Shown piece by piece: positions 23,610 to 25,293 of a stretch of DNA of 64,000 bases. Origin of the DNA: Marinobacterium aestuarii (GTDB lineage Bacteria > Pseudomonadota > Gammaproteobacteria > Pseudomonadales > Balneatricaceae); contig NZ_CP015839.1 of NCBI RefSeq assembly GCF_001651805.1, positions 1,364,001 through 1,428,000 of the forward strand, read 5' to 3'. The notes below the pieces were generated by a model. That model saw only the letters and a list, made by a program, of their open reading frames with translations. It was not told where the DNA came from and did no database searches. The first letter of the stretch is position 1; each line of letters begins with the position of its first letter. The position numbers and the translations under genes were made by a program.

Positions 23610-24422
23610 TTACTTCAGTGATTCGTTCAGGGTAGGGCGAATGCTTTGCAGCAGGGCCTTGAACATTTTCGGGTTGCCGGCCACCAGGTTGCCGCTGGTG
23701 CGATAGCCGGTGCCGCCGGTGAAGTCGCCGACCAGGCCGCCGGCTTCCTGCAGTAGCAGCATGCCTGCTTCGATTTCATTCTGCTGCAGGCCGATCTGGA
23801 AGAATCCGTCCAGGCGTCCTGCAGCGGTGTAGGCCAGGTTCAGGGCTGGAGAGCCGCCGTTGAAGGTCTTGCCGTCTGCCAGGATGATGTTGCGGAACAT
23901 TTCCTGAAATTCGTTCAGGTAGAGCTTGTCGCTGGTGCGGCCGATAAAGCCGGTGCCGATCAGTGAGCCCTGGATGGTTTTGCGGTTACTGACGCGCAGG
24001 CGCTTGCCGTTGAAGTGGGCGCCGTAGCCGCGGCTGCAGGTGAATTCCTCGCCGGCCATCGGGTTCAGGACTATGGCATGCTCGATTTTGCTAGTGCTGT
24101 GACCAGACATGCTGATGGCGAAAACAGGGAGGCCATTGGCGAAGTTGGTGATGCTGTCGATCGGGTTGATGTTCCAGGTGAAGGTCGGGCCTTCCTGTAG
24201 CGGAGCGTGTTCCCCTGAATATTCACCGACGATAGTGTGGCTCGGGTAAGCCTTCTGGATCGTGTGCACCATGGTCCGCTCGGCCTGTACACAGGTCTCG
24301 TTCAGGAATTCAGCGACGCCTTGCTGCTCGGATTTGATCAAATCAAGGCGCTCTACAGCACGTGCGATTTGCTCTCCTGCAAGACGCGCAGCGCGCAGGG
24401 CAATGTTTACCATCGGTTGCAT
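23610..24422 (-). CDS. suhB: SuhB homologue with altered catalytic residues (probable pseudo-enzyme)
   Basis: A 270-residue protein of the inositol-monophosphatase family in the usual suhB position, divergent from trmJ. SuhB is both a phosphatase and a NusA/NusG-associated factor in rRNA transcription antitermination. The canonical WVIDPLDGTTNF is WNINPIDSITNF here. Thus the metal ligand Asp84 (E. coli numbering) is N86, and the Gly-Thr pair that holds the catalytic water is S90-I91. The PWD ligand Asp212 is E216 (QNE). The VD of the N-terminal motif is TC (C44), EES is EYS, and the substrate Glu of EIG is Q209. Only E67 and D89 of the metal site remain. The frame is intact and full length, starting MQPMVNIALRAARLAG. 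Loss of phosphatase activity with the antitermination role kept is inferred. Confidence 0.88.
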   Translation of the reverse strand: MQPMVNIALRAARLAGEQIARAVERLDLIKSEQQGVAEFLNETCVQAERTMVHTIQKAYPSHTIVGEYSGEHAPLQEGPTFTWNINPIDSITNFANGLPVFAISMSGHSTSKIEHAIVLNPMAGEEFTCSRGYGAHFNGKRLRVSNRKTIQGSLIGTGFIGRTSDKLYLNEFQEMFRNIILADGKTFNGGSPALNLAYTAAGRLDGFFQIGLQQNEIEAGMLLLQEAGGLVGDFTGGTGYRTSGNLVAGNPKMFKALLQSIRPTLNESLK

Positions 24423-24555
24423 CAGTAGGGACCTAATATGTAGCGAGCCAAAACCCGGCATTATACAAAAACTGTGGCGCTGGAAGAACACTAATTCACC
24501 TAAAACGGCCTGTTCTGTTAAAATATCGCCCCCTTGAACCTATCAGGCGCGAAAA

Positions 24556-25293
24556 ATGCTCGAGAATATCCGCATTGTGCTGGTCAATACCTCCCATCCG
24601 GGCAACGTTGGCGGCGTGGCGAGGGCGATGAAGAATATGGGGTTGTCTGACCTCTGTCTGGTTGCCCCCAATGACTTTCCCAGTGAGGCGGCGGTGGTGC
24701 GTGCGTCCGGCGCAACCGACCTGCTGGATAATGCCCGCATCGTGCCTGAGCTCACCGATGCTGTGGCGGACTGTCATCTGGTGATCGGAGCCAGTGCCCG
24801 TGGCCGTCACATACCCTGGCCGGTAATAGACCCGCGGGAAATGGCGGCGATTGTGTCCGAAGTGCAGCCGCAGCTGCGTGTTGCCATCGTTTTCGGGCGC
24901 GAAGATCGGGGTTTGACCAACGAAGAGCTGCATTGCTGTCATCAGCATGTACATATCCCATCGGTTGAGGGTTTCAGTTCGCTTAATCTGGCGGCTGCGG
25001 TGCAGGTTATCGCCTATGAGTTGCGCATGATGGCGCTGTCGGGTGCCGCAGTCGAGAAGCCGCGCTGGGGTACGCCCTGGGATATCGATCTGGCCGACAG
25101 TGGCGAGATTGAGCGGATGTTTCAGCATCTGGAGAGCACTCTGGTTGATATCGAGTTCCTGAATCCGGACAATCCCCGTCAGTTGATGCCCCGGCTGCGT
25201 CGCCTTTTGTTGCGTGCGGTGCCGGACAAGGTCGAGGTCAATGTGCTGCGTGGCATTCTGACGGCGGTGAACAAGAAAGTCGGCGGTGGCTGA
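24556..25293 (+). CDS. trmJ: tRNA (cytidine/uridine-2'-O-)-methyltransferase TrmJ
   Basis: A 245-residue SPOUT-class enzyme that 2'-O-methylates position 32 of certain tRNAs using S-adenosylmethionine. N-terminal motif 1 is IRIVLVNTSHPGNVGGVARAMKN, split here by the GNVGG turn. The knot motifs are VAIVFGREDRGLTNEE near residue 115 and IPSVEGFSSLNLAAAVQV near 140. A C-terminal extension of about 80 residues is typical of TrmJ. It is divergent from the suhB-like gene and reads toward iscR. In Pseudomonas a cysE gene sits between trmJ and iscR; here that gene is absent. Confidence 0.93.
   Translation: MLENIRIVLVNTSHPGNVGGVARAMKNMGLSDLCLVAPNDFPSEAAVVRASGATDLLDNARIVPELTDAVADCHLVIGASARGRHIPWPVIDPREMAAIVSEVQPQLRVAIVFGREDRGLTNEELHCCHQHVHIPSVEGFSSLNLAAAVQVIAYELRMMALSGAAVEKPRWGTPWDIDLADSGEIERMFQHLESTLVDIEFLNPDNPRQLMPRLRRLLLRAVPDKVEVNVLRGILTAVNKKVGGG

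Follow-up and report, generated by a model that had tools for sequence, protein, structure and literature searches.

The suhB gene of Marinobacterium aestuarii lies in a 64,000-nucleotide stretch of its genome (henceforth the window) and encodes a protein with an extensively altered inositol monophosphatase (IMPase) active site. The locus raises the question of whether such a SuhB is still an enzyme, is retained purely for its part in the Nus complex, or is a gene in decay.

The suhB locus and the family assignment of its product

The suhB frame is intact and full-length, comprising 270 codons from an ATG start (24422-23613, followed by the stop), and is divergently oriented with respect to trmJ, as the original prediction had it. 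The conserved N-terminal MQPM fits this start; a 293-residue version initiating at GTG is a mechanical extension of the frame. Next to trmJ come iscR, iscS, iscU and iscA, so that the gene sits in the standard suhB neighborhood (Table 1). The closest named relatives, M. profundum and M. sedimentorum, both encode SuhBs that are 97% identical to that of the window.

The product is a member of the PF00459 family (134.7 bits against a cutoff of 27). Its best NCBIfam model, NF008027, is matched below the cutoff (234 versus 332 bits), and a score of 27 bits against a cutoff of 229 with TIGR01331 indicates that it is not a CysQ. The closest solved structure is that of Pseudomonas aeruginosa SuhB, to which it is 48% identical, and an AF2 model (pLDDT 91.8) superimposes on this structure (8wip) with a TM score of 0.94; P. 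aeruginosa and E. coli SuhB are its top matches in both sequence and fold. We also modeled a distant degenerate SuhB from the family f27 (pLDDT 94.0), and both models have the fold of SuhB from P. aeruginosa and E. coli; their matches include the SuhB chains in 6tqn, the rrn antitermination complex, and in 6ib8, SuhB-NusA-AR2.

Table 1. Features of the suhB locus, in window coordinates
Feature	Position	Strand	Basis
suhB, IMPase fold with degenerate catalytic site	23610..24422	-	ORF, PF00459, 48% identity to P. aeruginosa SuhB, AF2
C-terminal helix K252-x-F-K255-x-x-L258, equivalent to E. coli R248-K251-L254, NusA-AR2 contact	23649..23669	-	alignment and PMC6614801
E216 codon, in place of metal ligand D212	23775..23777	-	alignment
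Q209 codon, in place of substrate-contact E205	23796..23798	-	alignment
F187-N188 codons, in place of R183-R184	23859..23864	-	alignment
N86-P-I-D89-S-I91 codons, in place of the D84-P-L-D87-G-T metal/phosphate motif, D87 kept	24150..24167	-	alignment
E67-Y68 codons, in place of E67-E68	24219..24224	-	alignment
C44 codon, in place of catalytic D44	24291..24293	-	alignment
GCTCGCTA, probably a decayed boxA, 2 mismatches to GCTCTTTA	24441..24448	-	near the boxA position of relatives
TATAAT, likely -10 element of suhB	24460..24465	-	inferred from sequence
trmJ, divergent neighbor of suhB	24556..25293	+	arrangement as in canonical suhB loci

Degeneration of the catalytic site

Residues are numbered here after E. 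coli SuhB; the 43% identity of this reference sequence to the window SuhB agrees with the 43% given by Foldseek against 2qfl. Five of the seven key catalytic and metal-binding residues (D44, E67, E68, D84, D87, T89 and D212) are changed in the window protein, namely D44C, E68Y, D84N, T89I and D212E, leaving only E67 and D87 (its own D89). The substitutions G88S and E205Q further erode the site, and the set of D44, E67, E68, D84, D87, G88-T89 and D212 by which we recognize an IMPase enzyme is thus broken. By the precedent of IMPA1, T89 activates the attacking water. The substitutions reported in the original prediction (C44, Y68, N86, S90-I91, Q209 and E216) are all recovered at the same residues in our alignment, which adds two that it missed: R183/R184 are replaced by F187/N188, and the substrate-side A188 by P192. 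The same prediction would have failed had such changes been common in active SuhBs, but no canonical SuhB carries them. Counted over the seven residues, the degenerate proteins carry five or six changes in 133 of 136 cases and three changes in each of the other three, whereas all 88 canonical or paralogous IMPase-fold sequences are unchanged throughout.

The arginines R183 and R184 are present in each of 43 canonical SuhBs and mostly missing from the degenerate ones. Work on the E. coli protein reportedly discussed R184 in connection with dimerization, and the loss of both residues suggests that dimer or polymerase contacts might be altered. As for the site itself, we envisage an IMPase fold in which the metal-dependent center could no longer assemble, and because of this inositol phosphate would not be dephosphorylated. 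Residual weak metal binding is possible, given that E67 is kept and, in the family of the window, D87 as well.

Spread, number of losses and selection

The gene is matched in 99 of 100 genomes of this family, and each of the 69 whose sequence was read, drawn from all 16 genera, has a full-length frame with a degenerate site. Among the degenerate proteins are 49 named records of the Oceanospirillaceae type, from Marinobacterium, Neptuniibacter, Amphritea, Pontibacterium, Nitrincola, Aliamphritea and related MAGs. Since the substitutions are common to the whole family they do not stem from a sequencing error. At the trmJ-linked locus of seven further families of the order (f6, f7, f20, f27, f38, f39 and f45) SuhB is likewise degenerate; in these D87 is often gone too, and it is only in the family of the window that this residue is invariant among degenerate SuhBs. 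Canonical SuhBs are found in 25 other families of the order and in all 28 of the SuhBs taken from other gammaproteobacterial orders. A single genome (G202) of the otherwise canonical family f40 has a degenerate trmJ-linked SuhB (L298), and from this protein the AR2 helix, too, has been lost. The NusA of this genome is unusually divergent, with 46% identity as opposed to 60-81% for most.

To judge how often the site was lost we used trees of TrmJ and NusA. In the TrmJ tree f1, f6, f7, f38 and f39 fall in one clade (support 95/91), and a test of one clade uniting every degenerate family does not reject it (p = 0.34). The NusA tree recovers three groups, f27 with f38, f45, and the rest, with p = 0.09 for one clade, and the joint tree requires at least two changes. 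The number of losses accordingly ranges from one to about three, plus that in G202.

Close pairs within the degenerate set mostly have dN/dS values of 0.02-0.09, a few pairs that are less close reach 0.16-0.20, and canonical controls give similar or higher values. The ratio across relatives, a check that the original prediction had called for, is hence far below 1: degenerate suhB is under purifying selection, and this, along with the family-wide occurrence of the changes, also rules out a pseudogene.

A different situation is seen in the family f15, with genomes of 1.6-2.2 Mb (L299-L301). The only IMPase there is a catalytic one without the FK helix; neither a trmJ-linked nor a degenerate SuhB was found in these genomes, and SuhB may have been lost altogether in this family.

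Conservation of the NusA-contact residues and the Nus context

In E. coli, K251 and L254 of SuhB have been shown to bind NusA AR2 (PMC6614801). The window protein has K255 and L258 at the equivalent positions. In a comparison of three sets of sequences, lysine occupies position 251 in 60/62 non-redundant degenerate SuhBs, 40/43 canonical SuhBs and 0/10 catalytically intact IMPase paralogs; at position 254, all but two of the 62 degenerate proteins have L, V or I. Conversely, neither the canonical SuhBs nor the paralogs vary at D44, E67, E68, D84, D87, G88, T89 and D212, all of which vary in the degenerate set. Degenerate SuhBs and catalytic paralogs thus display opposite patterns at K251 and at the catalytic residues. 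The loss is also focused: canonical SuhB has 69 conserved positions, the other degenerate families have lost 18 of them, and eight of these 18 fall within a set of 10 active-site positions based on human IMPA1 (p = 1.7e-4).

The other gammaproteobacterial orders weaken the case for K251 marking AR2 binding universally: 11 of their 28 canonical SuhBs (L331-L358) have Q, T, H, S or A in its place, yet NusA, in those of the genomes where it was found, runs through AR2. The lysine alone therefore does not prove AR2 binding, and we read it as supportive rather than diagnostic.

The genome of the window encodes a single NusA, intact through both C-terminal acidic repeats AR1-AR2, and across the order the NusA matches cover the AR2 region to its end. 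The genome G229 encodes a second NusA-like protein (L387, C1:1470805-1471455), which is short and 33% identical to NusA residues 125-342. All six rrn leaders of the window's genome contain a perfect boxA, GCTCTTTAAC, 156-158 bases before the 16S gene. A quick look at the start codons that follow the perfect boxA matches outside rrn in this genome placed none of them before a recognizable Nus gene.

The E. coli Nus complex represses suhB itself by way of a boxA in the leader of this gene; of the 55 gammaproteobacterial genera examined in that study, 34 have a putative boxA within 50 bp of suhB (PMC5725501). Allowing up to one mismatch to GYTCTTTAA within 60 bases upstream, we detected a boxA in 24 of the 62 degenerate suhB leaders, which share ancestry and are not fully independent, compared to 1.7 expected and at most six in 300 dinucleotide shuffles. 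Among these matches are a perfect GCTCTTTAACA and two instances of GTTCTTTAACA in f38. Relatives carry GCTCTTTA, GCTCTTGA or GTTCTTTA where the window itself has GCTCGCTA, which looks like a decayed boxA; autoregulation of suhB may have been lost in this species. A feedback signal from the Nus complex that is kept elsewhere among degenerate genes makes sense if the product of suhB still acts in that complex.

Alternative explanations for the degenerate site

Taken together, these observations make it highly probable that the window SuhB is a pseudophosphatase ortholog that serves purely as a Nus factor. The first of two possibilities in the original prediction, namely that SuhB is kept only as a transcription factor, draws support from selection, the fold, the AR2-contact residues, the trmJ synteny, the boxA of relatives and the family-wide loss of the site. 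The C-terminal helix would bind NusA AR2 through K255 and L258, and SuhB would join NusA/B/E/G on the boxA RNA of rRNA transcripts, where it would promote processive antitermination and co-transcriptional rRNA folding. Complementation of E. coli suhB mutants has been reported not to require IMPase activity (PMC6614801, PMC4807359), and the natural case described here agrees with this.

The other possibility, an active suhB elsewhere, bears on an explanation that is compatible with the above: another IMPase could have replaced enzymatic SuhB, letting the canonical copy specialize. Most of the other degenerate families indeed have a separate canonical IMPase, which may have eased the loss in them. 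Against this, a PF00459 search of the 5.19 Mb genome of the window yields three proteins, SuhB and two CysQ that pass TIGR01331; this excludes a second SuhB, active or otherwise, and only CysQ or some unrelated phosphatase could have made up for the loss here, if anything did. We regard replacement as possible but unlikely. The two CysQ paralogs (L001 and L002) lie at about 238500 and 3459000 of G000:C1, with a cysN/cysC-like gene immediately upstream of the first.

Rather improbable, in our estimate, is the conversion of the former active site into a non-catalytic ligand pocket through which the Nus complex senses a metabolite or metal and tunes antitermination. It would fit the new preferred residues of the window's family (C44, Y/F68, N/S84 and S88) and the invariance there of D87 despite the loss of most of the catalytic set, but conservation at most pocket positions does not exceed the average in this family, and in the others these positions are scattered. 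A somewhat weaker case still can be made for a remodeled site, i.e. a protein that is still a hydrolase but whose metal geometry or substrate has changed, to which the retained E67 and D87, and the conservative nature of D212 to E and D84 to N as opposed to unrelated residues, would be congenial; the loss of five of the seven key residues, including T89, and the want of a shared replacement pattern in the pockets of the other seven families speak against it. That suhB is decaying or dispensable, as the lost catalytic residues and the apparent absence of a SuhB ortholog from f15 might suggest, is contradicted by the selection data, the occurrence of the gene in 99 of 100 genomes of the family, always as a full-length frame in the 69 that were read, and the conservation of the Nus-facing helix, and we give this view hardly any credence.

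Comparison with known SuhB proteins and implications

A SuhB that very probably acts as a Nus factor alone differs in distinct ways from each of its characterized relatives. E. coli SuhB (2qfl, 6ib8, 6tqn) shares with it the fold, the AR2-contacting K and L, the Nus context, the rrn boxA and synteny with trmJ; unlike the window protein, with its five changed residues and both arginines replaced, it is an active IMPase with all seven residues and R183/R184. P. aeruginosa SuhB (8wip, 8wdq, 9j90), nearly superimposable on our model and equipped with an FKALL helix, has in contrast kept every catalytic residue and has been crystallized with D-myo-inositol-1-phosphate. Human IMPA1 and the PF00459 enzymes have the same fold and Pfam family as the window SuhB, which lacks their metal site, whereas the bacterial catalytic IMPase paralogs examined are without the SuhB-type FK helix.

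Genes of this kind should not be annotated as inositol-1-monophosphatase in metabolic models, and they supply many putative phosphatase-free SuhBs for reconstituting rrn antitermination. Evidence on the need for the phosphatase in rRNA synthesis has so far come mostly from a few E. coli mutants, and our search of the open-access literature found no published description of a phosphatase-dead SuhB in nature. What is new here, in a protein already known, is the scale of the active-site loss and the apparently clean separation of function: eight families lack the active site and yet have the NusA-binding helix, the gene order and often the boxA, a natural separation that leads one to predict a Nus role independent of catalysis. 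The E. coli mutants that complement without IMPase activity (cited in PMC6614801, PMC4807359) were made in the laboratory, whereas the state seen in the window is natural and spans families.
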